IMG/VR virus record: IMGVR_UViG_3300023703_000855
Location: 1-48,776 of that record
Origin: a virus
Direction: 5' to 3' (one strand)
Length of the DNA: 48,776 nucleotides
Under the pieces are notes generated by a model, which was not told the origin of the DNA, did not search any database, and saw only the letters and a list, made by a program, of their open reading frames with translations. Shown piece by piece: positions 1 through 16,391 of the stretch (the first letter of the stretch is position 1; each line of letters begins with the position of its first letter). The translations under genes were made by a program, and so were the position numbers.

Positions 1-10
1 AGAAAAGACA

Positions 11-199: not shown

Positions 200-214
200 G
201 GCCACAGGGTGGCC
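200..214 (+). terminator. Short GC hairpin after the Cro-like gene
   Basis: GGCCAC (200-205) and GTGGCC (209-214) form a perfect 6-bp stem with a 3-base loop, 13 bases after the Cro-like stop codon. There is no U tract, so it may be a weak terminator, an RNA-processing or stability element, or chance. Confidence 0.35.
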
Positions 215-283
215 ACCTTCGTGCCAGTTCGTCTTGCTGGCCGTGGCCCGATCACCTTCTCTTCAAGACGTCAAAGCAAGACG

Positions 284-2818: not shown

Positions 2819-2822
2819 CAAA

Positions 2823-2850
2823 GCGGACAAAAAGCTGACGGCTTGTCCGC
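2823..2850. repeat. Inverted repeat GCGGACAA / TTGTCCGC
   Basis: GCGGACAA (2823-2830) pairs with TTGTCCGC (2843-2850); AAGC (2832-2835) and GCTT (2841-2844) can extend the stem in an alternative register. It lies 5 bases after the primase/helicase stop. It may terminate transcription, although a U tract is lacking, or serve as a protein-binding site, since its half-site CGGACAAA recurs in the array at 2954-2980. Confidence 0.6.
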
Positions 2851-2953
2851 TCGGGAAAGCCGCATGGATAAAGGGTTTGAGTTATATATACATACAAAAA
2901 GATATACCTTCTTTTTATATAATATATTCTCTCTTCCCTTTGTTTTAGGCCCC

Positions 2954-2980
2954 GTCCGGTTTGTCCGGTTTGTCCGGTTT
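2954..2980. repeat. Three tandem 9-bp repeats GTCCGGTTT
   Basis: GTCCGGTTT occurs at 2954-2962, 2963-2971 and 2972-2980 with no spacer and no mismatch. On the other strand each unit reads AAACCGGAC, related to the CGGACAAA half-site of the inverted repeat about 120 bases upstream. The 9-base period is close to one helical turn, so bound proteins would sit on nearly the same DNA face. Iterons or operators are the likely explanations. Confidence 0.8.
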
Positions 2981-3059
2981 ATTAGATTGATAAGATGGGT
3001 TGTTGTAAAAAAACAACGTTTGTTACTAATAACGAACTGCCATAAAAAGAGGATTTGAT

Positions 3060-3440
3060 ATGACTTTTAAGACTATAGAACTTGAGCTGCCTTGGCCGCC
3101 AACTGGGAACCATGCGACGAAGCACACGCGCACTGGCGTGCACTACAAAACGCCCGAGGCTGTTCGCTACCGCGCTGCCATTGCACAGCTGCTTGGTTGG
3201 AAGGGATTAGGCAAAGAGCCACTGACTGGCCCGATCAAGGTTGAGTGGTTGCTGGCCCCGCCTGACCGACGTGCTCGCGATGTGGACAACGCGCGCAAAG
3301 AGGCAGCCGACGCCCTCACGCTTGGCAAACTTTGGGTCGACGACTCGAACAAGGTCATCCGCAAAGAGACCTTCATCTGGACTGACCCTGAACCGAAGGG
3401 GAAGATTTTCTTAACGATAACTATTGGAGATTTGACATGA
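3060..3440 (+). CDS. rusA: RusA-family Holliday junction resolvase
   Basis: A 126-residue protein, the normal RusA length. The family signature is present: the N-terminal 'LPWPPTGNH' segment, the acidic 'RARDVDNARKEAADAL' helix (Asp near 74 and 76) and the 'WVDDSNKV' turn (Asp near 94-95). These acidic residues bind metal in RusA, which cuts four-way junctions in recombination and replication intermediates. The start is supported by an upstream GAGG (about 3050-3053). The stop overlaps the next ATG by 4 bases, so it heads the small-gene operon. Confidence 0.9.
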   Translation: MTFKTIELELPWPPTGNHATKHTRTGVHYKTPEAVRYRAAIAQLLGWKGLGKEPLTGPIKVEWLLAPPDRRARDVDNARKEAADALTLGKLWVDDSNKVIRKETFIWTDPEPKGKIFLTITIGDLT

Positions 3441-3718
3441 AAGAAAAACACGGAGAGTTCATCTCCATCGTTTGGGATGACTACGAACCAGAGTTTGAGT
3501 ATGTCAGAGGTCACGTCACCCAAGATGAAGCCGTGAAGGCTTGCATCCATTACCACGGTGAACGTGACGCGCCGACGGTGCATGGTGTGAAACACCGCTG
3601 GGCTAGATGGGTGCCTGCGAGCAACTGGAGCGACTTCTCGGCAATGTTCTACACCTACGACGAAAAAAGCAAAGGCACGTTTCCAGTGACTGAGATTCAG
3701 GTCAAGGGGAGTCAATGA
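3437..3718 (+). CDS. Hypothetical phage protein, 93 aa
   Basis: Not recognised. The protein is soluble and rich in acidic and aromatic residues (His-x-Trp-Ala-Arg-Trp near the middle), with no membrane segment or signal. Its ATG overlaps the RusA stop and its stop touches the next ATG, so it is translationally coupled in the operon. No function can be assigned. Confidence 0.7.
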   Translation: MKEKHGEFISIVWDDYEPEFEYVRGHVTQDEAVKACIHYHGERDAPTVHGVKHRWARWVPASNWSDFSAMFYTYDEKSKGTFPVTEIQVKGSQ

Positions 3719-3874
3719 ATGATCGAAGTCATCAAGACCTACACCAGCGGCCCAACTCGCAAGGTTGCAGTGACGCTGGCATATCGCTGCAAGAGCTGCG
3801 AGAGGATATGGCCAGACATCGTCAACGACAGAGTCAAAGCGTACAACCACGAATGCAAAGGAAAGAAACCATGA
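3719..3874 (+). CDS. Small Cys/His zinc-binding-like protein, 51 aa
   Basis: Read from ATG 3719, which overlaps the upstream TGA. The 51-residue product has Cys-Lys-Ser-Cys near residues 24-27 and His-Glu-Cys near 44-46, a C-x2-C...H-x-C arrangement that could bind zinc. The stop TGA (3872-3874) overlaps ATG 3871 of the next gene. A longer reading in another frame from 3715 across this segment is Gln/Arg/Ser-rich and looks artefactual; the overlapping start-stop pairs at both ends favour this frame. Function unknown. Confidence 0.65.
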   Translation: MIEVIKTYTSGPTRKVAVTLAYRCKSCERIWPDIVNDRVKAYNHECKGKKP

Positions 3875-4125
3875 TCAACAAACGAGCACTTGAGAAGGCA
3901 ATCAACGACACCATGCGCGAGCAGTTCGCGGCGCAGATGCGTGAGTTCCTCTGCTACGGCGCACCCAAGGAAATCACTGAGCTGTACAAGCGATACGTCG
4001 ACGAGTGCATCGCAGAGGACAGGCGACGTGCTAAGCGAGTTGAGATTGTTCAGCGTGTTGGCGCGCTGCTGGTGGTGGCTATCAGTATCGGCTGTATCTT
4101 TGCTATTTGGAGTGGACGCGTATGA
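3871..4125 (+). CDS. Small membrane protein with C-terminal TM helix, 84 aa
   Basis: Starts at ATG 3871 with 4-base overlap to the preceding small gene and a good AAAGGAAAG upstream. The N-terminal two thirds is a charged helix ('MREQFAAQMREFLCYGAPKE'). The C-terminal 'VGALLVVAISIGCIFAIW' is one membrane span, leaving a tiny tail. It is tail-anchored by appearance, and the role is unknown. Its stop overlaps the next start (ATGA). Confidence 0.7.
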   Translation: MINKRALEKAINDTMREQFAAQMREFLCYGAPKEITELYKRYVDECIAEDRRRAKRVEIVQRVGALLVVAISIGCIFAIWSGRV

Positions 4126-4319
4126 CACAACTCGACAGCACCGGCGCAGCAGCCGTAGATCACAACTACTTCTGGCAACCCATTGAGACCTGCCCACGCG
4201 GAGCTAAGGTGCAGCTACTCGGCAAAGGTGGCGTGGCCATGTACGGCCAGTACCACGGCAAGGAAACTTTCTACACACATTGGGCGCCATTGCCCAAGCT
4301 CAAGCGGGAGGCATCATGA
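4122..4319 (+). CDS. DUF551-like small phage protein, 65 aa
   Basis: Starts at ATG 4122, overlapping the previous stop. The pattern 'FWQPIETCPRGAKVQLL ... THWAPLPKL' matches the shape of DUF551-type phage proteins (Trp-x-Pro-Ile near the N terminus, Thr-His-Trp-x-Pro-Leu-Pro at the C terminus). Those proteins have no established role. The call rests on motif memory and is tentative. Confidence 0.6.
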   Translation: MTQLDSTGAAAVDHNYFWQPIETCPRGAKVQLLGKGGVAMYGQYHGKETFYTHWAPLPKLKREAS

Positions 4320-4495
4320 AAATTCGGATCATCAAAAAACCAGAATACATGTGCGTGCATCACGTGCAGAAGACGGCCTTTGGCATGTGGTTTACAGTGT
4401 TCGCAGGCACGCTAAGTGAGTGTGAGAAAGTGGTGGAATCACTGACACAAACTGGCACCGTATTTTCAGTCATTAAAGAAGTTGAGGTTTTGTAA
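4316..4495 (+). CDS. Hypothetical phage protein, 59 aa
   Basis: Starts at ATG 4316 (overlaps the previous TGA), preceded by GGGAGG at 4306-4311. The small basic protein ('MKIRIIKKPEYMCVHHVQK') ends in a helix and a beta-rich tail. No known family is recognised. It is coupled to the next gene by TAATG. Confidence 0.6.
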   Translation: MKIRIIKKPEYMCVHHVQKTAFGMWFTVFAGTLSECEKVVESLTQTGTVFSVIKEVEVL

Positions 4496-4848
4496 TGATT
4501 CGAATTCAACCAGACTGGTGCGGCGAGCTGCTCAGCATGTGGGCAGCCAAGGATTGGAGCGATGCGCAAGGTGACCTTGGCTTCCCTCACGTGTCACCCA
4601 TGTTTGCCAAGACCACGGCATTTGCTGCCGAGGTCGAGGACGTCGAGGGCTACAGCAGCGCAGAGCTTCGCGCCATGACCGCCGCAGTTGATTGGCTCAA
4701 GACCACACACCCAGATCACTGGCGCGCACTCAGCCGTGAGTTCAGGCAGTGGACTCGCAAGGATTTGCAAGAGAAAGACAACGACCGCGAGTTGGTGCTC
4801 GAGGCTGGCCGCATGCTCGCAAAATATATTGACGAGACCCTTGGCTGA
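4495..4848 (+). CDS. Conserved-looking phage protein, 117 aa; possible regulator
   Basis: A soluble, mostly helical protein. The segment 'AMTAAVDWLKTTHPDHWRAL' near residues 60-80 resembles small phage proteins that often close the early region and may be transcription regulators. I cannot show a DNA-binding motif. It is the last gene before a likely promoter that overlaps its 3' end (4841-4869). If the late promoters at 8.4 and 12.9 kb need an antiterminator, this is one candidate, by position only. Confidence 0.6.
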   Translation: MIRIQPDWCGELLSMWAAKDWSDAQGDLGFPHVSPMFAKTTAFAAEVEDVEGYSSAELRAMTAAVDWLKTTHPDHWRALSREFRQWTRKDLQEKDNDRELVLEAGRMLAKYIDETLG

Positions 4849-4869
4849 CGTTCACATCTGTTATACAAT
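4841..4869 (+). promoter_or_regulatory. Candidate sigma70 promoter upstream of 4909
   Basis: TTGGCT (4841-4846, 4/6 to TTGACA), a 17-base spacer, then TACAAT (4864-4869, 5/6 to TATAAT). It overlaps the stop codon of the 117-residue gene and lies 40 bases before ATG 4909. The sequence TGTTATACAATC here closely matches TGTGATACAATC at 38953-38964, which precedes a nested gene. Confidence 0.5.
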
Positions 4870-4908
4870 CGCCCAACGCAATTTCGCGTTTCAATCTTGG
4901 AGACGACC

Positions 4909-5106
4909 ATGATCACACCACAAACTGAAGGCGGCCAAATCGTTGGCCACCGCACACTCACCAACTCAACTGTTGACCATCGCCAGCATCCGCTCGTTGT
5001 TGGCTGGGTTCCAGTGCGCGCAGGATCGCAACAGCATGAGGCAATCCCTAGCCGATTCAACGACCGCCTCGAGTATCGCGATGGTCGCGTTGAGGAGTTG
5101 TCATGA
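4909..5106 (+). CDS. Hypothetical phage protein, 65 aa
   Basis: Start at ATG 4909, chosen over an upstream ATG at 4897 because TTGGAGA sits at the right distance. It is a polar 65-residue protein with several His and Arg residues ('TVDHRQHPLVVGWVPVRAG'). No family recognised. First gene after the 4841-4869 promoter; its stop overlaps the next ATG. Confidence 0.6.
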   Translation: MITPQTEGGQIVGHRTLTNSTVDHRQHPLVVGWVPVRAGSQQHEAIPSRFNDRLEYRDGRVEELS

Positions 5107-5342
5107 AGATCACAGCAGTTGACATCGCAAGGGTTGCGGCCTCGCACTACGGTGTGACGACAACTGACATTCTTTCAATCATGAAAGTGCCAACACATCC
5201 GGCAACTTTGCACGACACGTTTGCCGCTGCCGCAATGCAGGGATTGATTGCAGCCGATACGGAAGGGAACATTTCGGCAAGTGATATCGCAGAACTTGCG
5301 TATGCGCAAGCCGACGCAATGTTGGAAGCGAGGGGATTATGA
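5103..5342 (+). CDS. Hypothetical helical phage protein, 79 aa
   Basis: ATG 5103 overlaps the previous stop, with GAGGAG just upstream. The N-terminal 'VDIARVAASHYGVTTTDILS' has the rhythm of a helix-turn-helix and loosely recalls the start of the DnaA DNA-binding domain, but the protein is too short for that domain. A small DNA-binding protein is possible; I would not assign it. Confidence 0.6.
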   Translation: MKITAVDIARVAASHYGVTTTDILSIMKVPTHPATLHDTFAAAAMQGLIAADTEGNISASDIAELAYAQADAMLEARGL

Positions 5343-5893
5343 GGCCAACCAACATAGGCGCTCGACTGCGCAATCTGTTGCTGGCCAATCCAGACGGTAT
5401 GACGACGCGCGATCTGTCAAAGATCGATGGCACGCCACAGGACATAGTCATGGGCGCACTCGAGCGCAACTACGGCTTCTACGTTGGAGGCTGGGAGAAG
5501 GTTTCCGCTGGGAAGTACAGAACTGTCTGGCGATGCGTGGCCGTTCCTGCGAGCGCACCGAAGCCCATGGAATATTCCGAGTCATACGACAAGGAAGAGG
5601 CCCGCATACAACGCCAGCGCGAGAACTACAAAGAGATCAATGCCCAGCTTGTCGCGCAAAGACGCAAGGCTCGCATGGAGTTGAAGGTTCAGCGTGAACG
5701 CGAGAAGCTCGAGGCCAAGCAACGCAAGGCTGAATCGAAAGCCCTGCGCGAGCAAGCCGAGGCTGAAAGGCGTGCTGACGCTGCGCGCAGGAAAAAGCTC
5801 AAGAGCATTGAGCAAAGCCTGCAGCCAGCCGCACCAGAAGGCTACAAGCCAGCAAAAACTGTGTGGGTCACACCACCACCATGGAGTCACTAA
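5339..5893 (+). CDS. Winged-helix-like protein with long charged coiled coil, 184 aa
   Basis: Residues 1-70 look like a small wHTH ('GARLRNLLLANPDGMTTRDLSKIDG', then a beta wing 'VSAGKYRTVWRCV'). Residues about 80-160 form a very charged Arg/Lys/Glu/Gln-rich coiled coil. A Pro-rich tail ends in 'VWVTPPPWSH'. This suggests a DNA-binding, oligomerising phage protein. The specific role is unknown. Both ends overlap neighbouring genes. Confidence 0.65.
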   Translation: MRPTNIGARLRNLLLANPDGMTTRDLSKIDGTPQDIVMGALERNYGFYVGGWEKVSAGKYRTVWRCVAVPASAPKPMEYSESYDKEEARIQRQRENYKEINAQLVAQRRKARMELKVQREREKLEAKQRKAESKALREQAEAERRADAARRKKLKSIEQSLQPAAPEGYKPAKTVWVTPPPWSH

Positions 5894-6084
5894 TGAACAG
5901 CCAACACAAGAAGATCGCTATCTCAATCGGAACTCTGCTGTGGAAGCTCGCAGTTCTAGGTATAATGATTGTGATATGGGTGCACATCGTTGATGGCCTC
6001 ATCCACAAGGATTACATGCAGGCGCTGGCTTGGGCATCGCTTCGTGTGATCGTCGCATTGAACGAGATCGAGGAGAAGTTATGA
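5893..6084 (+). CDS. Small single-span membrane protein, 63 aa
   Basis: Start at ATG 5893 (TAATG with the previous stop). Residues about 8-33 ('ISIGTLLWKLAVLGIMIVIW') are a hydrophobic span with one Lys. The remainder is an amphipathic helix ending 'IVALNEIEEKL'. No family recognised. Coupled to the next gene by ATGA. Confidence 0.6.
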   Translation: MNSQHKKIAISIGTLLWKLAVLGIMIVIWVHIVDGLIHKDYMQALAWASLRVIVALNEIEEKL

Positions 6085-6590
6085 GTACAGAAGCAATGAA
6101 GCTGGCGCTTGAGGCGTTGGAAAACTTACTAAATGAGGCTTCAAGCCACAACAATAATTCGTACTGCCAGTTGGATGTAATTGACACAGAGGAAGCAGAC
6201 AACGCCATCAAAGCCCTAGAAGAAGCACTAGCCAAGCAAGAGCAGGGTGAACATAAAGAATCTGTAAGGCTTCAATGTGTTGTTTGCAATACCGTTTATG
6301 AAGATGGTGTTCCACCACAAGTAGCCAAGCAAGAGCAGGGTGAGCCTGTGGCGTGGGCGTGTTGGCTTGATTCTCAAAACCCAGAAACGGACAAACCTAT
6401 TGTTGTTCAATATGAACCGTTGGCCTATTCAAAACGACGACCACTTACATACACCACACCACAACAACGCAAGCCGCTGACGGATGAGCAGATTAAGCAC
6501 ATGCTAGAACTGTTTGTGGTTCCACCTCAACATGTTGAAATGGTTGTCCGAGCAATCGAAGCCGCCCACGGCATTAAGGAAACACCATGA
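6081..6590 (+). CDS. Modular repeat-containing phage protein, 169 aa
   Basis: Starts at ATG 6081 with GAGGAG upstream. N-terminal 'MSTEAMKLALEALENLL', two copies of 'KQEQGE', a 'GEPVAW' block, 'PQQRKPLTDEQI' and the C-terminal 'AIEAAHGIKE' are all typical of small mosaic proteins in beta- and gammaproteobacterial phages. A Cys-x2-Cys ('LQCVVCNTVY') lies between the two repeats. The same blocks recur in the next two genes, often at DNA level. Function unknown; recombination-shuffled cassettes are likely. Confidence 0.7.
   Translation: MSTEAMKLALEALENLLNEASSHNNNSYCQLDVIDTEEADNAIKALEEALAKQEQGEHKESVRLQCVVCNTVYEDGVPPQVAKQEQGEPVAWACWLDSQNPETDKPIVVQYEPLAYSKRRPLTYTTPQQRKPLTDEQIKHMLELFVVPPQHVEMVVRAIEAAHGIKETP
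6551..6580 (+). repeat. 30-bp exact direct repeat, copy 1
   Basis: Identical over 30 bases to 7291-7320. It encodes the C-terminal 'AIEAAHGIK' of gene 6081-6590, and its end, AAGGA, acts as the ribosome-binding site for the next gene (ATG 6587). Confidence 0.9.
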
Positions 6591-7090
6591 GTAAAGAAGC
6601 AATGAAACTGGCGCTTGAGTTTATTGAGCAAACATCAGCCTATCTTCCACTATCGTTTGATTCTGAAGGGATGAAAATTCATGCAATGCTTAAAGAAGCA
6701 CTAGCCAACCATATTCCTGACGCCACGAAAATGGTTTCAGGTGTAAAGGATTCCTTGACAACTCAGCAAGAGCAGGGTGAGCCTGTGGCGTGGTACATCC
6801 GAGAGAAAGACACAGCGACAACTGATGACAGTTGGATTCACGAGCATCCAGAAATGGTCGAGCCGCTGTACCTGCACCCACAACAACGCAAGCCGCTGAA
6901 TGACTGCGAAGTGTGTAATCACAAAGTCAGCAATCCCGATGGCGGTCACTGCTATATGTTCCGAAAGGAACCAGAGTTCAAATGCGCAAATTTTGATCTG
7001 GCAATGCCCAAGTGCGAACCACAGCCAACGCTGTACGTGAAAGATATTGACGGAAACTTTCACGAGTACGCACATGAAATAAAGGGTTGA
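6587..7090 (+). CDS. Paralogous modular phage protein, 167 aa, Cys-rich C terminus
   Basis: Begins 'MSKEAMKLALEFIEQ', nearly the same as the start of the previous gene, and carries the shared 'QEQGEPVAW' and 'PQQRKPLND' blocks. Its C-terminal third differs: 'CEVCNHKVSNPDGGHCYMF' with further Cys residues could bind a metal. This is a recombined paralogue of 6081-6590. Function unknown. Confidence 0.7.
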   Translation: MSKEAMKLALEFIEQTSAYLPLSFDSEGMKIHAMLKEALANHIPDATKMVSGVKDSLTTQQEQGEPVAWYIREKDTATTDDSWIHEHPEMVEPLYLHPQQRKPLNDCEVCNHKVSNPDGGHCYMFRKEPEFKCANFDLAMPKCEPQPTLYVKDIDGNFHEYAHEIKG

Positions 7091-7093
7091 CTT

Positions 7094-7324
7094 ATGGACG
7101 ACACAGTAATCGAAGGGTTTTGCTACTCATACCTCGGCAACTCTGGCAAAGAGCGGTTGCTGATGGCTAGCTTTGGAAAAACACGGTCAATGGCAAAACG
7201 CAGATTTGGGTTTCACAACCACAAACGCAAGGAAATCATCCTGCCTTATAAAAGGTATGCGGTGCAATTAACTGTGAAGTGCGAAGCGCCAGCAATCGAA
7301 GCCGCCCACGGCATTAAGGAGTAA
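7094..7324 (+). CDS. Hypothetical phage protein, 76 aa, with shared C-terminal repeat
   Basis: The N-terminal 65 residues are unrelated to the two genes before it ('FGKTRSMAKRRFGFHNHKRK', very basic). The last ten residues are 'AIEAAHGIKE', encoded by the exact 30-base repeat at 7291-7320. The repeat looks like a recombination joint that attaches different N-terminal modules to one end and to one ribosome-binding site. Function unknown. Confidence 0.6.
   Translation: MDDTVIEGFCYSYLGNSGKERLLMASFGKTRSMAKRRFGFHNHKRKEIILPYKRYAVQLTVKCEAPAIEAAHGIKE
7291..7320 (+). repeat. 30-bp exact direct repeat, copy 2
   Basis: Identical to 6551-6580. It again encodes the C-terminal 'AIEAAHGIK' and supplies the AAGGAG ribosome-binding site (7316-7321) for ATG 7328. 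Confidence 0.9.
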
Positions 7325-7327
7325 GAC

Positions 7328-7669
7328 ATGATTTCTCAACTACTTGCACGTTGGCGCTTTCGTAAGCACCCAAAGGATGACTACAGGGCGGACTACGAAA
7401 CCCTCATTAGGTTGGCTCGTCGCTGCGCATACGATCTTCGGCACACAATCGATCAACTTCCACCGGATCACTTCTACATAGAAGAGATGGGAATGCGCAA
7501 CCGATCTAACTGGTGGGTGGCTCAGTTTTCAAAGGGCAATCCCGGCAAAGACTATCGACACGAAATGCAGCGCGATATTGATCACCTGAGATACGAGCTA
7601 GACAAACTTCACGCTTGGTGCGCAGAGCGCGGATTGAATCCGCCAGACAGCCGAGATATTCCGTTTTAA
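7328..7669 (+). CDS. Hypothetical phage protein, 113 aa
   Basis: A soluble, helical, charged protein ('DYETLIRLARRCAYDLRHTI', later 'EMQRDIDHLRYELDKLHAWC'), ending Pro-Pro-Asp-Ser-Arg. The AAGGAG supplied by the preceding repeat lies 6 bases before the ATG. No family recognised. Confidence 0.65.
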   Translation: MISQLLARWRFRKHPKDDYRADYETLIRLARRCAYDLRHTIDQLPPDHFYIEEMGMRNRSNWWVAQFSKGNPGKDYRHEMQRDIDHLRYELDKLHAWCAERGLNPPDSRDIPF

Positions 7670-7681
7670 GGAGAAAAGCAC

Positions 7682-7807
7682 ATGACATGCAAACACAGAT
7701 ACGAGCCGACCAACTTCGGCATCAAGTACCGCAACCCAAAAGATTATTGGTGGTGCTGCAAACGTTGCGGACACACCATATTTTCTGGACTCAAGGAGCG
7801 ATCATGA
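7682..7807 (+). CDS. Mini zinc-ribbon-like protein, 41 aa
   Basis: ATG 7682 follows AAGGAGAAA. The 41-residue product has Cys3, His5, Cys25-Cys26 and Cys29, with 'WWCCKRCGHTIF' giving a typical C-x2-C zinc knuckle. The stop overlaps the next ATG (ATGA at 7804). It is small but well framed. Role unknown. Confidence 0.6.
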   Translation: MTCKHRYEPTNFGIKYRNPKDYWWCCKRCGHTIFSGLKERS

Positions 7808-7992
7808 GCGCCGTCAGACAATTGGCAGCATCGATTGAGCAGGTCTCCAAGTCAATGCTAGAGTTGGGCGAGGCGTTCTATCAACGCATCACTCGAGAGT
7901 CAAAACGAATCGATGCACTCGAGCAAGAGATCGAGCGACTCAAGCGCGAGCCTCGCAAATCATTTGGACAAAAGATCAGGGAAAGATCATGA
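7804..7992 (+). CDS. Small coiled-coil protein, 62 aa
   Basis: Starts at ATG 7804, overlapping the previous stop. Heptad-like 'IDALEQEIERLKREP' near residues 38-52 indicates a coiled coil, with a basic tail. No family recognised. Overlaps the next gene by 4 bases. Confidence 0.6.
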   Translation: MSAVRQLAASIEQVSKSMLELGEAFYQRITRESKRIDALEQEIERLKREPRKSFGQKIRERS

Positions 7993-8183
7993 GCAGGAAC
8001 GACATCACCGGCGACTCACTCGTGAGCAGGGTTGCCACAAAGGAATACACCGAGTCACACGAGCGGATATTTGGCAAGCGCCCACCGTGGTACGTGACGC
8101 GCGATGAGCGAGCAAAGCAGGAGCAAGAGAATGAACATCGACAAGCTGAAGCTGGACAAGCCAGCACCACTGACGAACGCTGA
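7989..8183 (+). CDS. Hypothetical short phage protein, 64 aa
   Basis: The N-terminal 'MSRNDITGDSLVSRVATKEY...ERIFGKRPPW' is a pattern I associate with short conserved phage proteins of unknown role. The C-terminal 20 residues overlap the start of the next gene (53 bases) and are low-complexity, so the conserved part is residues 1-35. The ATG overlaps the previous stop. Confidence 0.55.
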   Translation: MSRNDITGDSLVSRVATKEYTESHERIFGKRPPWYVTRDERAKQEQENEHRQAEAGQASTTDER

Positions 8184-8406
8184 GCGCCAAAAGCGTTGGC
8201 GTGCGAAGCAGGCAAGTCGAGGCATTACCGTGGCTTTCCACGCACACACCGAGGCCACGGCTGCCCTCATATACCTGCGCAAGCAGTGGGGCTTCACCAG
8301 CAATCAGGAGGCGGTCGAGGCTGCGCTGCGTCACCTTGCACTCGAGACTCGCATGGGTTTAAAGCGCATCCAACTGGACGCCGTTGACGTCATCGGGAAC
8401 CGGTGA
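8131..8406 (+). CDS. Ribbon-helix-helix-like DNA-binding protein, 91 aa
   Basis: ATG 8131 is preferred over ATG 8104 because AGGAG (8119-8123) is 7 bases upstream. After 'NAERQKRWRAKQASRG' the protein reads as a beta strand ('ITVAFHAHTEATAAL') plus two helices ('SNQEAVEAALRHLA'), the layout of RHH regulators. It may regulate phage promoters. The promoter at 8384-8412 overlaps its own 3' end. Confidence 0.6.
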   Translation: MNIDKLKLDKPAPLTNAERQKRWRAKQASRGITVAFHAHTEATAALIYLRKQWGFTSNQEAVEAALRHLALETRMGLKRIQLDAVDVIGNR

Positions 8407-8412
8407 TATAGT
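8384..8412 (+). promoter_or_regulatory. Strong sigma70 promoter (late, head genes)
   Basis: TTGACG (8384-8389, 5/6), exactly 17 bases, then TATAGT (8407-8412, 5/6). The -10 starts directly after the TGA of the RHH-like gene. Transcription would begin near 8419 and meet the terminator at 8441 after about 20-45 bases, so read-through into the terminase genes probably needs antitermination or leaky termination. A related unit lies at 12945-13016. Confidence 0.75.
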
Positions 8413-8440
8413 GCGCCTCGGAGCAGTGTCTCCAAAATCA

Positions 8441-8463
8441 GCCCGCCGCGTGCGGGCTTTTTC
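8441..8463 (+). terminator. Rho-independent terminator in the late leader
   Basis: GCCCGC (8441-8446) pairs with GCGGGC (8452-8457) around a 5-base loop and is followed by TTTTT. It ends the short transcript from the 8384-8412 promoter and the early operon arriving from the left. Upstream, GGAG (8420-8423) and CTCC (8430-8433) can form a smaller leader hairpin. Confidence 0.8.
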
Positions 8464-8556
8464 ATTTTTATTGACCCCCTGCCGCCCTTTCAAGTGTCCG
8501 TCTCCCATGAGATAGGGATGGCTAGGGGCGTCATTCACCCTTGTGGAGACGTCACC

Positions 8557-8715
8557 ATGAACAAGCAAACCCCAGCCCAGCAAAAGAAAGTGGGCCTCAT
8601 CATGCGCGAGTTCGCCAAGGGCCAGCTCCACTCAGGCAAGGGCGGTCCCATCGTCAAGGACCAGAAGCAGGCCGTGGCTATTGCCATGAGCCAAGCCCGC
8701 CAACTCAAGAAGTGA
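8557..8715 (+). CDS. DUF6496-type small basic protein, 52 aa
   Basis: ATG 8557 is chosen (TGGAGA 13 bases upstream) over an in-frame start further left. The pattern 'MREFAKGQLHSGKGGPIVKD' then 'KQAVAIAMSQARQLKK' matches DUF6496 proteins, which occur next to phage packaging genes and have no proven role. It lies directly before the terminase small subunit. Confidence 0.7.
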   Translation: MNKQTPAQQKKVGLIMREFAKGQLHSGKGGPIVKDQKQAVAIAMSQARQLKK

Positions 8716-8716
8716 T

Positions 8717-9229
8717 ATGAGCGACACACCCGAAAAGAAACCCCGCCGCAAGTACGTGCCAGAGACGGTGGCACTACACCGCAAGCCAGAGCGCGACGCC
8801 GCCGAGGTTTTGCGTGAGCAGGTTCTTGCCGTGGCCGACGACGTCTTTGACCGCTACGTGTGGGGTGAATCTTTTCAAGCCATCGCTGACACGCTTGACT
8901 TCAAGGTGGCTGGCTGGAAACTGCGTGCCATCCTGATGGAGCACGAATCAACCAAGGAAACCTACGCCAAGATCGGCGCCCTGCGCGCCCACAACTTGGT
9001 GGACGCTGCCATCGACTATGGCCGCAGTGCTGCAGCCATCGGTGACGCCGCAGGCTTTCGCGTCGCCGTCGACACCAACCTCAAAGTGGCGGCCAAGCTC
9101 AACGCCTTGGACTATGGCGACAAGTCTAAGCTCGAGCTGACTGGCAAGAACGGTGGCGCCATCGAGGTCAAGGCCGACCTCACGCTGACCGCTGAGCAAG
9201 CCTACGAGCGCATGGTCAAAGGGATGTGA
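8717..9229 (+). CDS. terS: Terminase small subunit
   Basis: A 170-residue protein immediately upstream of the large subunit. An N-terminal helical DNA-binding part ('GESFQAIADTLDFKVAGWKL' is HTH-like, about residues 50-70) is followed by helices and the typical tail 'KSKLELTGKNGGAIEVKADLTLT', ending 'AYERMVKGM'. It should recognise phage DNA and recruit the large subunit for packaging. The stop overlaps the next start (TGATG). Confidence 0.85.
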   Translation: MSDTPEKKPRRKYVPETVALHRKPERDAAEVLREQVLAVADDVFDRYVWGESFQAIADTLDFKVAGWKLRAILMEHESTKETYAKIGALRAHNLVDAAIDYGRSAAAIGDAAGFRVAVDTNLKVAAKLNALDYGDKSKLELTGKNGGAIEVKADLTLTAEQAYERMVKGM

Positions 9230-10746
9230 TGGAAAACTTCGACTGGATCAACCCGAACTACGAAGAGGTTTTCAAGCAGCGCGTCGAGCGCCTCGAGCGC
9301 ATGCGTGCGCAGCCCGAGATCGTGCACCGCCTCAAAGATTACTACGCTGGCAACCCCGCCGACTTCATCAACGACTGGGGCATGACGTTTGACCCACGCT
9401 TGGCCGAACGTGGGTTGCGCACCGTGGTCCCATTCGTTCTGTTCCCAAAGCAGCGCGAGTTCATTGACTGGCTGCTGCAACGCTGGATGAGCCGCGAGGA
9501 CGGCCTAGTCGAGAAGTCTCGTGACATGGGCCTGAGCTGGCTCACCGTGGGCTTCGCAGCTTGGATGATGCTGTTCAAGACCGGCACTGTGGTGGGCTTC
9601 GGCTCGCGCAAAGAGAGCTACGTCGACCAGATCGGCAACCCCGCGTCGCTGTTCTGGAAGGTGCGAGAGTTCATCAACCTGCTGCCAGCCGAGTTCCAGC
9701 CTGACAGCTGGGACCCTAGCAAGCATGCGCCGTTCATGAAGATCCAGAACCCAGAGAACGGGTCGTTCATCACTGGCGAGGCTGGCGACAACATTGGCCG
9801 CGGTAACCGCACGTCAATCTATTTCGTGGACGAGGCCGCATTCTTGGAGCACCCAGAGTCAGCCGACGCCGCGCTGTCCCAAACCTCCAACTGTCGACTG
9901 TATGTGTCCACGCCCAACGGCGCGGGCAACCCGTTCTATCGCCGCGCGCACGACGGCAAGACCAAGAAGTTCGTCTTCGACTGGCGTGACGACCCGCGCA
10001 AAGACGATGCGTGGTACGAGAAGCAAAAGGCTACGCTCGACCCCGTCGTGCTGGCGCAAGAGGTGGACCGCAGCTACACAGCCTCGGTGGCCAACGCGTT
10101 CATCCCTGGCGAGCTGGTCATGGCCGCTTCGCGCAAAGGCCCCATGGACGTCATACCCTACGGCCCGATCATCATGGGCATTGACGTCGCCCGCTTTGGT
10201 GACGACGGCAGCTCAATCAGCCTGCGCCAAGGGCGCGTGCTGCTGCGACAGATCAACTTCCGCGGCGCTGATGTGGTGGACGTTGCCGGCAGGGCCAAAG
10301 AGGTGTACCGCGAGCAGATGGGTGAGATCGCCCAGATCGCAGTCGATACCATCGGCATTGGCTCCGGTGTGGCGGACATCCTGCGTCGCGACTTTGGCGA
10401 CATCGTGGTGGACGTCAACAGCTCGCTGCGCATGAGCGACGGCAAGAGCTACAACCTGCGCGCGCACATGTGGCGCGAAATGCGTGAGTGGCTCAAGAAC
10501 GGCGCCTCCATTCCAAACGACAATGACCTCATCACCGACCTTACTGCGTTGCAGTACGGCTACAAGGGTGGTGAGCTGCTGCTCGAGAGCAAGCAAGACG
10601 CCAAGAAGCGCGGCATCAAATCCCCAGACCGAGCTGATAGCTTGGCTCTGACATTCGCTTACCCGGTCGAGAAGAAAGACGACTGGGTTGTTCCAACTGG
10701 GCAGCACCATGCGTGGGCTGCGCTGGATGAAGTCACTGGATACTAG
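9229..10746 (+). CDS. terL: Terminase large subunit (packaging ATPase/nuclease)
   Basis: A 505-residue protein from ATG 9229 (a GTG at 9226 is directly before it). The ATPase half has the terminase-type Walker A 'EKSRDMGLSW' (about 95-104) and Walker B 'IYFVDEAAF' (about 196-206). The nuclease half has an RNase H-like 'IMGIDVARFGDDGS' (Asp near 319) and 'SPDRADSLALTF' (about 465-476). It pumps DNA into the prohead through the portal and cuts the concatemer. Gene order small subunit, large subunit, portal is standard. Confidence 0.93.
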   Translation: MENFDWINPNYEEVFKQRVERLERMRAQPEIVHRLKDYYAGNPADFINDWGMTFDPRLAERGLRTVVPFVLFPKQREFIDWLLQRWMSREDGLVEKSRDMGLSWLTVGFAAWMMLFKTGTVVGFGSRKESYVDQIGNPASLFWKVREFINLLPAEFQPDSWDPSKHAPFMKIQNPENGSFITGEAGDNIGRGNRTSIYFVDEAAFLEHPESADAALSQTSNCRLYVSTPNGAGNPFYRRAHDGKTKKFVFDWRDDPRKDDAWYEKQKATLDPVVLAQEVDRSYTASVANAFIPGELVMAASRKGPMDVIPYGPIIMGIDVARFGDDGSSISLRQGRVLLRQINFRGADVVDVAGRAKEVYREQMGEIAQIAVDTIGIGSGVADILRRDFGDIVVDVNSSLRMSDGKSYNLRAHMWREMREWLKNGASIPNDNDLITDLTALQYGYKGGELLLESKQDAKKRGIKSPDRADSLALTFAYPVEKKDDWVVPTGQHHAWAALDEVTGY

Positions 10747-10762
10747 CCAAAAAGAGAACATT

Positions 10763-12943
10763 ATGCACAACCCAGACGAAAACAAACAACACCTCGCCGT
10801 CATCGACGGCAACGAGATCATGACGCGCGAGCAATACGACCAGCGCGTGCACCAAGAGGTCGAGAAGTTGCACGGCATGTTCTCGCAGCTGCGCGACAAG
10901 TGGGTGCAGCACCGCGCTCAAAGCAACGTCGAGAAGCGTTGGCGCCGTGCGGCTCAGCTCTACTGGGGCGAGCACAACACCACGACCGGCGAGTTTGAGA
11001 ACACGTTACGTAACGGCCCGCCCGCCCGCAAGGTCACGGACGGCAACCGCTCACGCGTGGTGGTCAACATCGTGCGCCCCAAGGTGGACCAAGCCATTGC
11101 GCGCATGTGCGAGATTCTGTTCCCCACCGACGACAAGAACTGGGGCATCAAGCCTACGCCAATCCCAGACATAGCCAACATGATGGGCGACGAGCGCAAG
11201 ACGGTGAATCCACAGACCGGCGAACCCACCGGAATGACGGCAAACCAAGAGGCTCAGTTGGTGGTTGAGGCTGCCAAGAAGTCCGCTGAATCCATGGAGA
11301 AGTCCATCGACGACAGCCTGACCGAGGCTAAGTTCAATGGCGAGAGTCGTGAGCTGATCGACAACGCTGTGCGATTGGGCACAGGCATCATGCACGGCCC
11401 CTTTCCAGCCCGTCAAACGAGCAAGGTGTGGATACCCCAGCAGGGTGGCACGCAAATGCTTCAGATCAACGAATCCATCGTCCCATCGTCCGAGTCGCTC
11501 GACCCATGGAACACCTTCTTTGATCCAGCCTGCGGCAACGACCACCAGCGTGGCCGTGGTTTCTTCATCCGTCGCGACGTAACCCGCAAGGAATTGCGCC
11601 GCCTCGTGGGCATTCCTGGCTACGATGCCGACGCTATCCGCGACGTGCTGCGCGCGCCACCCAACCGCATCCGTGTGGCCGAGGGCCGCGTCATGCGCGA
11701 CGTCATCAAGGAAGACAGCTACGAGATGTGGACCTATCACGGCGAGATCGAGCCTGACGAGATGGAGTTGCTGACCATGCGCACCAACGCCGACCCGTTG
11801 ACTGACGTCGACTTCGGTGTACTGATCATGGTGAACGACAAAGTCATCGGCGCCATGGAGTCGTGGGTCGAAGACAAGAGTCTGCCGGTTGACGTGTGGT
11901 GCTGGCGCAAGTCCGACGACTCGCCTTATGGCTTTGGCTTGTGCGACGAGCTGGAGCACCAGCAGCGCGTGGTGAACTCTGCTTGGCGTCAGGTCATGGA
12001 CAACGGTCGCACCTCGCTTGGCGGCCAAGTGGTCATGCGCAAGGGCATGGTCATTCCACAGAACGGCAGCTACGAGATCACGCCCAACAAGATCTGGCTG
12101 GCCAAGGACGACACCGAGGACGTGAGCAAAGCCTTCAGCGTGTTCGAGTTCAACAGCCACTTGCAAGAGCTGCTTGCCATCGCGCAGGCAGCCATGACAT
12201 TTGCTGAGCAAGAGACCGGCATGCCCCAGCTCATGGGTGGCGAGAAGGGTAGCGCGCCCGAGACTGTCGGCGGCATGGTCATGCTGTACAACAACGCCAA
12301 CAGCGTGCTGCGCCAGCGCGTCAAGCTGTATGACGACTGCATCACCCGCCCACACATCGGTCGCTACTACGACTGGAAGATGGCCAACGATCCAGATCCA
12401 GAGATCAAGGGCGACTACGAGGTCGACGCCCGCGGCAGCACTGCGCTGATCGAGCGCGACATCCAGAACCAAGCCCTGCTGAACCTGGCCAACATCACCA
12501 ACAACCCACGCTACGTGCCTTACATGAAGGACCGTGCTGAGTTGCAGGCTATCTTGAAAGCATTCAAGGTCAACCCTGAAGAGCTGATGAAGTCCGAGGA
12601 TGAGTACAACCAGTTCATGGAGCAGCAAGCTAAGCAAGGCCAGCAGCAAGATCCTCGCATCGTGGCAGCCCAGATGAAGGCTCAGACCGAAGCGGCCAAG
12701 CTGGAAGACAACAAGGCTCAGCGAGAGTTTGAGGCGCAGAAGGAGCAGGGTGAGTACGAGATCGCGATGACTGATGCCTCCATCACTCGAGACCTTGGCA
12801 TCGCCAAGCTCGAGCAGGACGGCACGCTGACCCGCGAGGAGATCGCAGCCAAAGAACGCTTGGCCTCGCTCGAGATAAACAACGAGCGCGAGCTGTTCAA
12901 TGCCGAGGCCGCCATCAAGGTGAACCAAGGTTCTGGAATTTAA
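10763..12943 (+). CDS. Portal protein
   Basis: A 726-residue protein starting at ATG 10763; in-frame codons to its left overlap the terminase gene. The core has the portal-type 'NIVRPKVDQAIARMCEILFP' and 'SYEMWTYHGEIEPDEME', with 'KSDDSPYGFGLCDELEHQQR' and 'PQLMGGEKGSAPETVGGMVM' in the middle. The last 130 residues are a Gln/Glu-rich coiled coil, like the barrel of podovirus portals. The length fits podovirus portals. It forms the ring for DNA entry and tail attachment. Confidence 0.88.
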   Translation: MHNPDENKQHLAVIDGNEIMTREQYDQRVHQEVEKLHGMFSQLRDKWVQHRAQSNVEKRWRRAAQLYWGEHNTTTGEFENTLRNGPPARKVTDGNRSRVVVNIVRPKVDQAIARMCEILFPTDDKNWGIKPTPIPDIANMMGDERKTVNPQTGEPTGMTANQEAQLVVEAAKKSAESMEKSIDDSLTEAKFNGESRELIDNAVRLGTGIMHGPFPARQTSKVWIPQQGGTQMLQINESIVPSSESLDPWNTFFDPACGNDHQRGRGFFIRRDVTRKELRRLVGIPGYDADAIRDVLRAPPNRIRVAEGRVMRDVIKEDSYEMWTYHGEIEPDEMELLTMRTNADPLTDVDFGVLIMVNDKVIGAMESWVEDKSLPVDVWCWRKSDDSPYGFGLCDELEHQQRVVNSAWRQVMDNGRTSLGGQVVMRKGMVIPQNGSYEITPNKIWLAKDDTEDVSKAFSVFEFNSHLQELLAIAQAAMTFAEQETGMPQLMGGEKGSAPETVGGMVMLYNNANSVLRQRVKLYDDCITRPHIGRYYDWKMANDPDPEIKGDYEVDARGSTALIERDIQNQALLNLANITNNPRYVPYMKDRAELQAILKAFKVNPEELMKSEDEYNQFMEQQAKQGQQQDPRIVAAQMKAQTEAAKLEDNKAQREFEAQKEQGEYEIAMTDASITRDLGIAKLEQDGTLTREEIAAKERLASLEINNERELFNAEAAIKVNQGSGI

Positions 12944-12944
12944 T

Positions 12945-12973
12945 TTGCACATCGTCAAAAAATGATGTACATT
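12945..12973 (+). promoter_or_regulatory. Candidate promoter for the capsid genes
   Basis: TTGCAC (12945-12950), 17-base spacer, TACATT (12968-12973). The match is weaker than the 8.4-kb promoter, but the following leader aligns with that unit: TGAT-TA, CGC-TCGG, GCAG and TGTCTC occur in the same order and spacing, then a GCCCGC hairpin and T run. The shared layout supports real promoters at both places. Confidence 0.55.
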
Positions 12974-12979
12974 TCGCTT

Positions 12980-13016
12980 CGGGCAGGTGTCTCTTGATGC
13001 AGGCCCGCGGTTTTTT
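12980..13016 (+). terminator. Leader hairpin with T6 after the 12.9-kb promoter
   Basis: CGGGC (12980-12984) and GCCCG (13003-13007) can pair around an 18-base loop, with T6 at 13011-13016. It matches the terminator at 8441 in position within the leader. It is weaker, because the loop is long and three bases separate stem and T run. Confidence 0.5.
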
Positions 13017-13033
13017 CATGAGCCATTAGTTGA

Positions 13034-13066
13034 GGCGCCCCTTAAAAAAGGGCGCCTTTTCTTTTT
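13034..13066 (+). terminator. Rho-independent terminator upstream of the capsid operon
   Basis: GGCGCCC (13034-13040) pairs with GGGCGCC (13050-13056) and is followed by TTTTCTTTTT. It stands between the portal and the 13079 gene, so portal transcripts would stop here unless antiterminated. The ribosome-binding site of the next gene begins 3 bases after the T run. Confidence 0.85.
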
Positions 13067-13078
13067 CCGGAGACGACA

Positions 13079-13312
13079 TTGAAACTTGAAGACTTCCACA
13101 GCATGTGCTGGAAGCGGCTTTCGAAATTGATTGACGAACGGGTCGATGAATTACGAAAGCTCAACGACTCTGAACTGAGTCCTGAGAAAACAGCCTTGGT
13201 GCGTGGTGGCATCAAGGAACTGAAAAAGATCCTCGCCCTTGCAGAAGATGCAAGCGCGGGAGCAGCAGTCAGCCCCGATGAATTAAGCGGCGCCGACATT
13301 ACCCGCCAGTAA
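13079..13312 (+). CDS. Small helical head-region protein, 77 aa, TTG start
   Basis: Initiates at TTG 13079 with CCGGAG ideally placed at 13067-13072. The N-terminal 60 residues are helical and charged ('KLIDERVDELRKLNDSEL', 'GGIKELKKILALAEDA'), with a flexible Ala/Gly/Ser tail. Position between portal and scaffold suggests a minor head or assembly protein. No family recognised. Confidence 0.65.
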   Translation: MKLEDFHSMCWKRLSKLIDERVDELRKLNDSELSPEKTALVRGGIKELKKILALAEDASAGAAVSPDELSGADITRQ

Positions 13313-13337
13313 TGGTGACAAGTGAGACGACAACCAA

Positions 13338-14234
13338 ATGACCGTACAGGAACAAACTAACCCACAAGACGAAGCCCAGAAGATTTGGGACCAGCTCGAC
13401 GCTGAGGAAACTGGCAAGGCATTGCCGGACGACAAGGCTGAGGGAACTCAGGCAACTGAGTCATTGGATTCGCAAGAGGCATCAGATCAACGCCAGCAAG
13501 CACCCGCCGATCAGGCCGATGCAAGCGCAGGCGCTGGCGCTGAGAGCAACGAGCAATCATTGATGGACAAAATCGCTGGCTTGGAGAGCATGCTCTCACA
13601 AGTGACAACTCGTCTTCGGAATGCAGAAGGCCATATCGGCGGCTTGAATGGACAGTTGAAGCAACATCAGCAATTGGCCAAGCAAGTAGCCAACTCAGGC
13701 GGCGACGCGCCTAACGCGGATCAAATCCGTCAGGCGCAGAGCAGCCCAGAGGCCATGGCCAACTTAAAGCGCGACTACCCAGAGTTCGCGGACGCAATGG
13801 AGTCTGCCTTAAAGCAGCAGATGCTCGAGCAGGAGCAGCGCCTCAAAGCGTTGATCCAAGATCAAAAGGGTGGCGTCAGCCACGAAGAGATCGCTCAGAT
13901 GCGTTCAGAGCTGGCGGTGGAAGCAAAGCATCCAGGTTGGCAAGATCGTGTACAGACGCCTGAATTCATGGGCTGGCTGCAACGCCAGCAACCCGAAGTC
14001 CAGATGCTTGCGGCGAGCGAAAGCCCGCGAGATGCAATTCGATTGCTAGATCTGCACAACGAAGCCACGAATCCAGCAACGTCAGCAAACAAAACGCAGC
14101 GCCTTAGCTCTGCGGCGGCTATTCCTTCTGGGCGCAGCGCCGGTTCATCCGCACGCGGCAAAGCAGTAGAGGATATGACGCCACAGGAATATTGGCGCTA
14201 CCTCGATGAACTCGATAAGCAAAAAGGTAATTAA
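13338..14234 (+). CDS. Scaffolding protein (likely)
   Basis: 298 residues, acidic and Gln/Ala-rich, with an unstructured N terminus, a central coiled coil ('DKIAGLESMLSQVTTRLRNA') and a helical C terminus ending 'MTPQEYWRYLDELDKQKGN'. It lies directly before the major capsid gene with a 2-base gap, as phage scaffolds do. It would guide capsid assembly inside the prohead and leave before or during packaging. Assignment is by position and composition. Confidence 0.72.
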   Translation: MTVQEQTNPQDEAQKIWDQLDAEETGKALPDDKAEGTQATESLDSQEASDQRQQAPADQADASAGAGAESNEQSLMDKIAGLESMLSQVTTRLRNAEGHIGGLNGQLKQHQQLAKQVANSGGDAPNADQIRQAQSSPEAMANLKRDYPEFADAMESALKQQMLEQEQRLKALIQDQKGGVSHEEIAQMRSELAVEAKHPGWQDRVQTPEFMGWLQRQQPEVQMLAASESPRDAIRLLDLHNEATNPATSANKTQRLSSAAAIPSGRSAGSSARGKAVEDMTPQEYWRYLDELDKQKGN

Positions 14235-14236
14235 CC

Positions 14237-15283
14237 ATGCAAACGTATTCCTTAGTTCCCTCACGGAACCTCATCATGGCCGAGCGCGAAATGCTCAAGC
14301 ATGCTCAGCCAATCAAAGTTTTGTCAACCTTCGGTTCACAAAAACAAGTCCCTCAAAACAAGACTGACACCGTGGTGTTCCGTCGTGCTCTTCCTTTGGA
14401 TGCTGGCACAAACGGCGCTCCTAACGTGACAGCAAGCAACTACTTGATGCAAGAAGGCGTGACTCCAGCAGCTCGCACCATCACGTATCAAGACGTGCAA
14501 GTGACATTGCAACAGTACGGCGTGTTGATGAAAATCTCTAGCAAAGCTGAGTCTTTGTACGAAGACGACATCCCTGCTGACATGGTCAAGCTGGTTGGCG
14601 AGCACATGGCTACTCTGGAAGAGTTGATCTCTTACGGTGTGGTTCGTGGCGGCACCAACGTCGTGTTTGCCAACGGTACCGTGCGTACTGCTGTGAACAC
14701 TGCAGTGACCGTGAACAAGTTGCGTCAAGCTGCTCGCCAATTGGAGAGCGCACACGCACAACTCGTGACTGAGCGTCTGTCTGCCAGCGTGAACTTCGGT
14801 ACATCCGCTATCGAACCTGGCTACTTGGTGTTCATCCACACTGACTTGGAAGCCGACTTCCGTAACTTGTCCGTCAACGGCGTGACAGTGTTCACACCTG
14901 TGGCTAAGTACGGTTCACAAAAGCCAGTGCACGAGCGCGAGATCGGTACTGTTGAGCGTTTCCGCATCATCACATCGCCTTACTTCAAGCCATTCTTGGC
15001 TGCTGGTGGCACTGTGACTGCAGGCGCTTTCTTGTCTAACGGCGGCACCACTGGTACCACCGCTGACGTGTACCCAATCATGGTCGTTGGCCAAGAAGCT
15101 TGGGGTCAAGTTGCATTGAAGGGCCAAAACGCCATTCAACCAATCTACTTGCCCGCAAAGACAATCACCCACGCTAACCCAATGGGTCAGTTCGGTTATG
15201 TCGGCGCAAACTTCTGGAAGAACGCCGTCCGTCTCAATGAGAACTGGATGGTGAGGGTCGAGGTCGCAGCTTCTGGCTTGTGA
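14237..15283 (+). CDS. Major capsid protein, N4-gp56 type
   Basis: 348 residues. Segments characteristic of the N4-gp56 capsid family are visible: 'VTLQQYGVLMKISSKAESLY', then 'EHMATLEELISYGVVRGGTN', 'VNKLRQAARQLESAHAQL', and a C-terminal 'VGQEAWGQVALKG' followed by 'PMGQFGYVGANFWKNAVRL'. Codon choice shifts here to GCT, GGT, CGT and TTG, unlike the flanking genes, as expected for the most abundant virion protein. It forms the icosahedral shell. Confidence 0.88.
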   Translation: MQTYSLVPSRNLIMAEREMLKHAQPIKVLSTFGSQKQVPQNKTDTVVFRRALPLDAGTNGAPNVTASNYLMQEGVTPAARTITYQDVQVTLQQYGVLMKISSKAESLYEDDIPADMVKLVGEHMATLEELISYGVVRGGTNVVFANGTVRTAVNTAVTVNKLRQAARQLESAHAQLVTERLSASVNFGTSAIEPGYLVFIHTDLEADFRNLSVNGVTVFTPVAKYGSQKPVHEREIGTVERFRIITSPYFKPFLAAGGTVTAGAFLSNGGTTGTTADVYPIMVVGQEAWGQVALKGQNAIQPIYLPAKTITHANPMGQFGYVGANFWKNAVRLNENWMVRVEVAASGL

Positions 15284-15296
15284 TTATTCTGAGTGA

Positions 15297-15797
15297 ATGA
15301 CCATGAAGACTTGCCGCTCCTGCCAAGTTAGTTTGCCTCTTGAGCTTTTTTCAAAGTCCAAGAGGAACTCTGACGGGTTTCAGAGTGAATGCAAGTCTTG
15401 TCACAATGCTTATGCTCGCGAGCACTATCAAGCCAACAAAGAAAAGCACAACGCCCAGTCTAAAGCTTGGCGTCAAGCTCACCCAGAGTTGGATAGAAAA
15501 TGGTCTCGCGAGCGTCAAGCAAAGCGGCGCAGGGAAAGTGCTCACCTCGTCAATGCTGCAACCGCCGCACGCAAGAGTTACATCAAGCAGGCAACACCAG
15601 CATGGGCCAACAAGTTCTTTATCACCGAGGCATACCATCTTGCCAAGTTGCGTGAGAAAATGTTGGGAGGTAAGTGGCAGGTTGACCACATCATTCCGCT
15701 TCGCGGAAAAAAAGTGTCAGGTCTTCACGTCGAGCACAATCTTCAGGTCATACCAGCTCGATTGAATCTCACAAAGCACGCTAGTTTTACGGTTTAA
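15297..15797 (+). CDS. Free-standing HNH endonuclease (homing type)
   Basis: 166 residues. The N-terminal zinc-knuckle pairs 'CRSCQ' and 'CKSCHNAYAR' are followed by a basic linker and a C-terminal HNH motif: 'QVDHIIPLRG' (Asp-His), then 'VEHNLQVIPARLNLTK' with the conserved Asn residues. Such enzymes nick or cut DNA and spread as selfish genes. It sits between the capsid gene and the next structural gene and differs from both in composition, so recent insertion is likely. An alternative start is ATG 15303. Confidence 0.88.
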   Translation: MTMKTCRSCQVSLPLELFSKSKRNSDGFQSECKSCHNAYAREHYQANKEKHNAQSKAWRQAHPELDRKWSRERQAKRRRESAHLVNAATAARKSYIKQATPAWANKFFITEAYHLAKLREKMLGGKWQVDHIIPLRGKKVSGLHVEHNLQVIPARLNLTKHASFTV

Positions 15798-15819
15798 TTT
15801 TTTTTCAAAGGATTCCAAA

Positions 15820-16332: not shown

Positions 16333-16341
16333 TAGCAGTTC

Positions 16342-16365
16342 GGCACTCACCTTCGGGTGGGTGCC
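16342..16365 (+). terminator. 10-bp UUCG-capped hairpin after 16332
   Basis: Bases 16342-16351 pair with 16356-16365 (one G-U pair) around the extra-stable tetraloop TTCG. Only a short CCCCCTTT follows, so it may be a weak terminator or a 3'-end stabiliser for the abundant capsid mRNA. Confidence 0.75.
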
Positions 16366-16391
16366 TCCCCCTTTAATTCATGGAGACCATC

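Follow-up and report, generated by a model that had tools for sequence, protein, structure and literature searches.

Phage lambda has a single Q-dependent late site. The Q proteins fall into families that include lambda Q (PF03589), Q21 (PF06530) and Q82 (PF06323), according to the part of the source available to us (PMC7171158). In Pseudomonas aeruginosa one antiterminator, AlpA, is described in the available part of its report as acting at two promoters, whose terminators lie at +26 and +54; its binding element is placed between the -35 and -10 boxes (PMC7969949). GafZ, of the Caulobacter gene transfer agent, antiterminates a phage-like late cluster, also has its element between -35 and -10, and is stated, in the text available, to be without similarity to known antiterminators (PMC11150451).

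The stretch of viral DNA analysed here (IMG/VR record IMGVR_UViG_3300023703_000855, 48,776 nt, hereafter the window) carries three promoter modules, u1, u2 and u3 (Table 1). It resembles the lambdoid phages in that a late promoter has a terminator directly behind it, as at PR'-tR' (here at u1, at u2 and in relatives), and in that a small early gene near rusA encodes the putative factor, for which a Q21-like fold is predicted. It differs from the lambdoid Q systems in having three modules per genome rather than one, terminators at 22-60 nt from the start, a conserved sequence from +1 to +15, few -10-like pause elements, and a protein that the Q profiles miss. With AlpA the phage modules would share an antiterminator serving more than one promoter; AlpA, as presented in the available part of its report, by contrast regulates bacterial cell death, acts at two loci, is predicted to contain a winged helix and has another sequence element; a conserved start element is not mentioned there. 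GafZ differs in having one target promoter, a terminator behind the first gene and a requirement for GafY and IHF, again following the available text (PMC11150451). We regard Q-type antitermination at several late promoters, with a 117-aa early protein as a Q21-like factor, as the probable explanation of this arrangement.

Table 1. Coordinates of the features of the window discussed in the text
Feature	Coordinates	Strand	Details
Candidate Q-like antiterminator, 117 aa	4495-4848	+	early gene; kept in 6/7 relatives; Q21 best structural match
Small protein of unassigned function, upstream of u1	8131-8406	+	kept in 7/7 relatives
u1 promoter	8384-8412	+	-35 TTGACG 8384-8389; -10 TATAGT 8407-8412; start expected at 8419
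u1 initially transcribed element	8419-8433	+	CGGAGCAGTGTCTCC; folds as 5' hairpin 8420-8433
u1 intrinsic terminator	8440-8463	+	stem AGCCCGCCGCGTGCGGGCT 8440-8458; T-run TTTTT 8459-8463
Terminase small subunit	8717-9229	+	with the large subunit, first identified late genes behind u1
Terminase large subunit	9226-10746	+	see small subunit
Portal / head-tail adaptor-like protein	10763-12943	+	last gene before u2
u2 promoter	12945-12973	+	TTGCAC 12945-12950; 17 nt; TACATT 12968-12973
u2 initially transcribed element (from 12980) in 5' hairpin, then T6	12980-13007	+	terminator scan
u2 main terminator	13032-13066	+	GGCGCCC..GGGCGCC + TTTTCTTTTT
Major head protein	14237-15283	+	behind u2
Endolysin	28162-28776	+	last gene before u3
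u3 promoter	28778-28806	+	weak -35 TTGCTT 28778-28783, placed by position only; -10 TAGAAT 28801-28806
u3 initially transcribed element and hairpin	28813-28838	+	without T-run
Bidirectional terminator, end of late region	42566-42590	both	terminator scan

An earlier note on this DNA had claimed a promoter at 8384-8412 and a terminator at 8440-8463, and both are found there in the sequence and by the scan; the 5/6 boxes with 17-base spacing and a terminator about 22-45 bases after the start are likewise borne out, the terminator lying at +22 to +45 from the expected start (stem +22 to +40, T-run +41 to +45). The u1 promoter (10/12 over the two boxes, 17-nt spacer, extended TG before the -10) is the best of the 6 promoter-like sites that a scan of positions 1..20000 returned. 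In that same interval neither promoter-like sites (6 versus 7.5 expected in shuffles) nor terminator-like sites (19 versus 21.5) exceed chance, so that the evidence for u1 resides in the promoter-terminator pairing and its conservation. The leader 8419-8472 folds with -17.5 kcal/mol (z -1.98), and its 5' hairpin, GGAG-N6-CTCC, was absent from the earlier note. The upstream ORF 8131-8406 terminates within the extended -10 of u1, and a 52-aa ORF and then the genes for terminase small subunit, terminase large subunit and portal follow downstream. The note had assigned the promoter to terminase and portal expression, and u1 does precede these genes; its view of a single site was too narrow, as u1 is one of three modules.

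The u2 module (12945-13062) lies between the portal gene and the scaffold and capsid genes, and the u3 module (28778-28838) between the endolysin gene and the next gene; in the other u2 modules TTGCNC occupies the same -35 position. Under a strict rule, which asks for a hairpin of dG <= -8 and for 6 or more T in 8, only 4 terminators were identified on the + strand of the whole window, at 8440, 12976, 13032 and 42567: three of them sit behind u1 or u2, and the fourth closes the late region. The hairpin of the window's u3 is without a T-run, hence there is no intrinsic terminator at this module, which may perhaps be a plain late promoter now.

The three modules are described by the pattern TANNNT-N6-CGG-N5-Y-N-Y-S-Y-Y, which occurs exactly 3 times in the window (shuffle mean 0.35, 0/100 shuffles reaching 3); as the pattern was built from the window and related sites this shuffle test is not independent, and more weight falls on the counts in other records. 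The pattern is found 3 times, on a single strand per record, in each of G002, G005 and G010. Allowing a spacing of 5 or 6, three late-strand modules were identified in each of six relatives (G002, G003, G004, G005, G006 and G008), the subset of the seven fetched records that was analysed after exclusion of G001, a 34-kb record close to the window, from the module count. A terminator lies within 110 nt behind 17 of these 18 modules by rule, and by eye behind the remaining one (u1 of G008); the same rule finds 53 terminators in total on the late strands of the six relatives, so the modules are not their only location. In related contigs, 57 distinct sequences match the pattern, with a terminator of dG <= -8 in 43 and of -7.5 to -7.9 in 4 more; 9 of the 57 cores, without a -35 and without a terminator, were set aside by eye as chance, which biases the remaining 48 towards terminators. 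The classes u1, u2 and u3 come from a crude rule that misfiled at least 3 rows (L154 7682, L157 and L158) as u1, and the counts are independent of them.

With the terminase small subunit as query, 13 and then 40 loci were retrieved from IMG/VR, and most of those reaching far enough upstream are arranged alike: the promoter is followed by a short 5' hairpin, a GC-rich terminator with its T-run, 0-2 small ORFs and then terminase. In L013 and L014 the large terminase near the module differs in type from that of the window, while the small subunit is still found together with the u1 module and the homologue of 8131-8406. No relative of the terminase small subunit was found in the host genomes, and 4 matches of the module pattern there were judged by eye to be chance. 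Of three named phages whose capsid or terminase is related, two (L163, L164) have pattern matches without a terminator by rule and one (L162) has no match. Start element and terminator, without the TATCACAATG spacer, also occur at L218 1826, L221 2687 (reverse strand) and L224 2346, and by eye the L221 element stands upstream of terminase-like genes. Six of the 16 contigs searched (L216, L219, L222, L225, L226, L227) were without a clear terminator by eye and were left unused.

The spacing from the -10 to the start element, whose consensus is CGGGnnAnTnYSYCY, is exactly 6 nt in all three window modules. Column conservation was computed from 31 modules sharing no more than 75% identity, and the best conserved columns beyond the -35 and -10 are CGGG at +1 to +4, A at +7, T at +9, Y at +11, G or C at +12 and C at +14; the search pattern itself requires CGG, the +11 pyrimidine and some of the other columns, whose 31/31 is therefore by construction. 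Columns that the pattern did not impose are conserved too: G at +4 in 25/31, A at +7 in 28/31, and T rather than C at +9 in 30/31. The positions of the element fit the consensus elemental pause, given as -10G, -9G, -1Y and +1G in the available part of the source (PMC10268239), at +11, with G at +12 in 21/31 modules and, in the window, in u3 only. From this match one might infer a polymerase pause at +11. The sigma-dependent -10-like pause element was recognised by a simple rule in only 4/31 modules.

The element forms a hairpin in leaders of the u1 type, with a mean of -6.92 kcal/mol versus -5.23 kcal/mol when the 3' halves are swapped (17 distinct leaders, 0/500 as low). The GGG of the u2 and u3 elements pairs further downstream than in u1; this difference of partner means that sequence and register are conserved more than any one structure. 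It bears on an attenuation model, in which the 5' hairpin would act as a put-like cis-acting RNA and control the terminator without a protein. A structured 5' end does stand upstream of each terminator, as such a model would have it, yet the partner of the GGG varies among u1, u2 and u3 while the start sequence is constant, and a Q-like gene accompanies the modules; we hold this model to be highly improbable. A variant in which the 5' arm pairs with a terminator arm was rejected, the arms in the window not being complementary by eye.

The same leaders could themselves be the product: the short terminated RNAs from u1 and u2 would be stable, structured small RNAs acting in trans on host or phage messengers. 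There is a precedent in StxS of the Stx phages, like the RNAs expected here a short RNA made by termination directly behind a late promoter; it differs in its processing by RNase E from a longer leader and in having one promoter, as far as the available part of the report describes it (PMC7873438). The two-hairpin u1 RNA with its structured 5' end and the sequence of the 5' element, kept across all modules, speak for a small RNA, and u1 has some weak likeness to RF02278 and isrK. With RF02278, a betaproteobacterial toxic small RNA, it shares the UGUCUCC start and an aligned GCCCG terminator stem; the candidate was rejected, as it scores 20.2 bits where the gathering score is 50, aligns 39 nt to a 64-position model and has no match in the six relatives. 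The Trp leader (RF00513) reaches 25.6 of 41 bits at u1, with an alignment made mainly of the terminator stem, and the isrK and Yfr1 matches of u1 are below their Rfam gathering scores. None of these four families has a match in the six relatives, where a single weak and unrelated match, to asX2, was obtained. Similarity of phage DNA to u1 extends to 297 records, with short matches mostly on the GC stem and E up to 10, which we took to be generic terminators. Against a small RNA as the product, u1, u2 and u3 have different RNA bodies between start element and terminator, the motif GUCUCC, of the pairing type, is not conserved across modules, and every module precedes a late block and has a Q-like gene upstream of it. 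We therefore consider this explanation unlikely; a functional leader RNA and antitermination may coexist.

A further candidate for factor binding at the promoters, besides the +1 to +15 element present in all modules, is a motif found in relatives. The sequence GTATCACAATG forms the spacer between -35 and -10 in most of them, and not in the window's own close group; its core TATCACAATG is multi-copy in those relatives, with up to nine exact copies per record; the window has none. Copies of TATCACAATG or TATCACATTG are also repeated in early intergenic regions of relatives G002-G014 (e.g. L105, L106, L140), outside the three late modules, and these early copies often follow a stop codon directly or closely precede a start codon. 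From its distribution, the motif is possibly a phage-wide operator.

Such a motif, multi-copy and placed between -35 and -10, would suit control at initiation, in which a phage protein (e.g. the product of 8131-8406 or of 4495-4848) binds it and activates the promoters, with the terminators serving as insulation only. The -35 boxes of u2 and u3 are weak, and 8131-8406 is kept in all seven relatives. Its product looks by eye like a ribbon-helix-helix protein, with no PDB match by sequence. An insulating terminator would however be expected upstream of the promoter, and here it is downstream in 20/21 modules of the window and the six relatives (19 by rule, one by eye). The spacer motif, moreover, is absent from the window, and the u1 promoter there matches at 10/12 and has an extended TG. 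Control at initiation seems to us quite improbable, and we return to Q-type antitermination as the preferred explanation.

When the window was compared with the seven relatives, two conserved early genes of unassigned kind stood out, 8131-8406 in 7/7 and 4495-4848 in 6/7, the record without the latter being G006, which starts shortly upstream of terminase. The product of 4495-4848, the 117-aa protein, has no notable match in PHROGs, NCBIfam or Pfam, nor in a sequence search of the PDB, and a search with its most diverged relative gave no named phage. The PF06530 (Q21) profile found 0/8 records at E <= 1, with a positive E. coli control, and PF06530 was absent from a Pfam scan of the protein and its relatives; PF03589 (lambda Q) likewise found 0/8 (hhalign E 0.49), and PF06323 (Q82) 0/8 with equally silent control genomes. 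As the PF06530 test is negative we do not file the protein in that family, and our proposal is that it works in a Q-like way. Alignment by hhalign to ten proteins of the Q21 type (PF06530 family) gave E 0.0018, a probability of 15% and 77 colinear columns, against E 0.49, 0.24 and 0.019 for the controls.

Foldseek preselected 301 PDB chains, and the structural match is restricted to these; on re-alignment of the predicted structure (pLDDT 73.6, residues 32-50 poor) the top three were Q21, with Z 7.0, 6.8 and 6.6 over 86-90 residues at rmsd 3.4-3.7 (90 residues and rmsd 3.5 for the best), followed by sigma region 4 domains (Z 5.5 and 5.0). The model of a homologue 49% identical to the window protein gave Q21 as the first four of 170 chains, likewise preselected (Z 6.4-6.3; 96 aligned residues and rmsd 4.0 for Z 6.4), with sigma region 4 next; most of the alignment behind the models is common to both, which are therefore not fully independent. 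The tool itself warns that a structural Z below 8 can come from an arrangement that is common, and with Foldseek on its own no match reached E <= 0.001 in PDB or BFVD, so that the evidence for a Q21 fold is good, but not final.

The genomic position of the gene agrees with that of Q. A rusA gene (3060-3440) lies upstream of it, both being early and upstream of u1, and rusA followed by Q is also the order in HK97, HK620 and the DLP12 prophage of K-12. Among 35 viral contigs with the candidate gene, 30 have a module with terminator 2.3-5.4 kb downstream; of the other five, two have a module with 5-nt spacing and three end within 2 kb. The 117-aa protein is our candidate for the factor. The antitermination that the earlier note had proposed gains much support, all of it computational: the promoter-terminator pair is conserved, is repeated three times per genome before late blocks, and accompanies an early protein with a predicted Q21-like fold.

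The computation gives the three modules, shows that they are conserved and linked to the protein gene, and predicts the fold; from this we infer the starts, the termination, the loading and the read-through of the following scheme. The late blocks would begin at host-type (sigma-70) promoters whose transcripts meet an intrinsic terminator at once, so that unaided polymerase would make short RNAs only, of about 45 nt from u1; the terminator at 8440 would also stop early transcripts arriving from upstream. Later in infection, the Q21-like early protein would load onto polymerase at the late promoters, at sites marked by the +1 to +15 element in its fixed register and, in relatives, also by the spacer GTATCACAATG, and the modified polymerase would read past the terminators into terminase, capsid and post-lysis genes. 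Q-type antitermination explains at one time promoters capable of firing, terminators directly behind them, an early-made factor, and late blocks that depend on it. Several findings count against it: the spacer motif is absent from the window, the window's u3 is without a terminator, -10-like pause elements are few, and element and terminator occur in L218, L221 and L224, records with no match to the candidate protein or to PF06530.

A more specific version, with three late operons opened by a single diverged factor of Q21 fold that loads at the elemental pause in +1 to +15, and not at a sigma-dependent -10-like pause, is a tentative proposal that we think possible, with the odds against it. 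If true, the element with terminator in the unlike contigs L218, L221 and L224 would point to a widespread, unnamed loading site. The general reading, Q-type antitermination at these promoters, would widen this kind of control from a single promoter to a three-operon regulon, and the phages would be a natural case for whether an elemental pause can substitute for the sigma-dependent one in loading. There would then also be a Q21-like factor outside the reach of current profiles, and a complete late-gene switch for an uncultured phage group, with factor, promoters, candidate loading sequence and terminators. In the open-licence literature, which makes this weak evidence of novelty, we found no description of several Q-dependent late promoters in one phage.

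Some other features of the window may be mentioned. Behind the u1 terminator lies another conserved hairpin (8469-8551, TGACCCC..GGGGTGTCA in the window), and its outer arms covary in relatives. The nearly invariant CGTCTCCC within it has its complement, in the window, in GGAGACG, the ribosome-binding region of the ORF that comes next. The late messenger may have this hairpin as a leader element. Among the early genes, two adjacent ORFs have repeated stretches in common (6062-6113 with 6568-6619, and 6328-6356 with 6765-6793), and by their sequence they are likely a tandem duplication. The very large ORF 32528-39340 encodes 2270 aa, and Stenotrophomonas phage StenR_269 has an ORF of equal length with the annotation putative virion-associated RNA polymerase.
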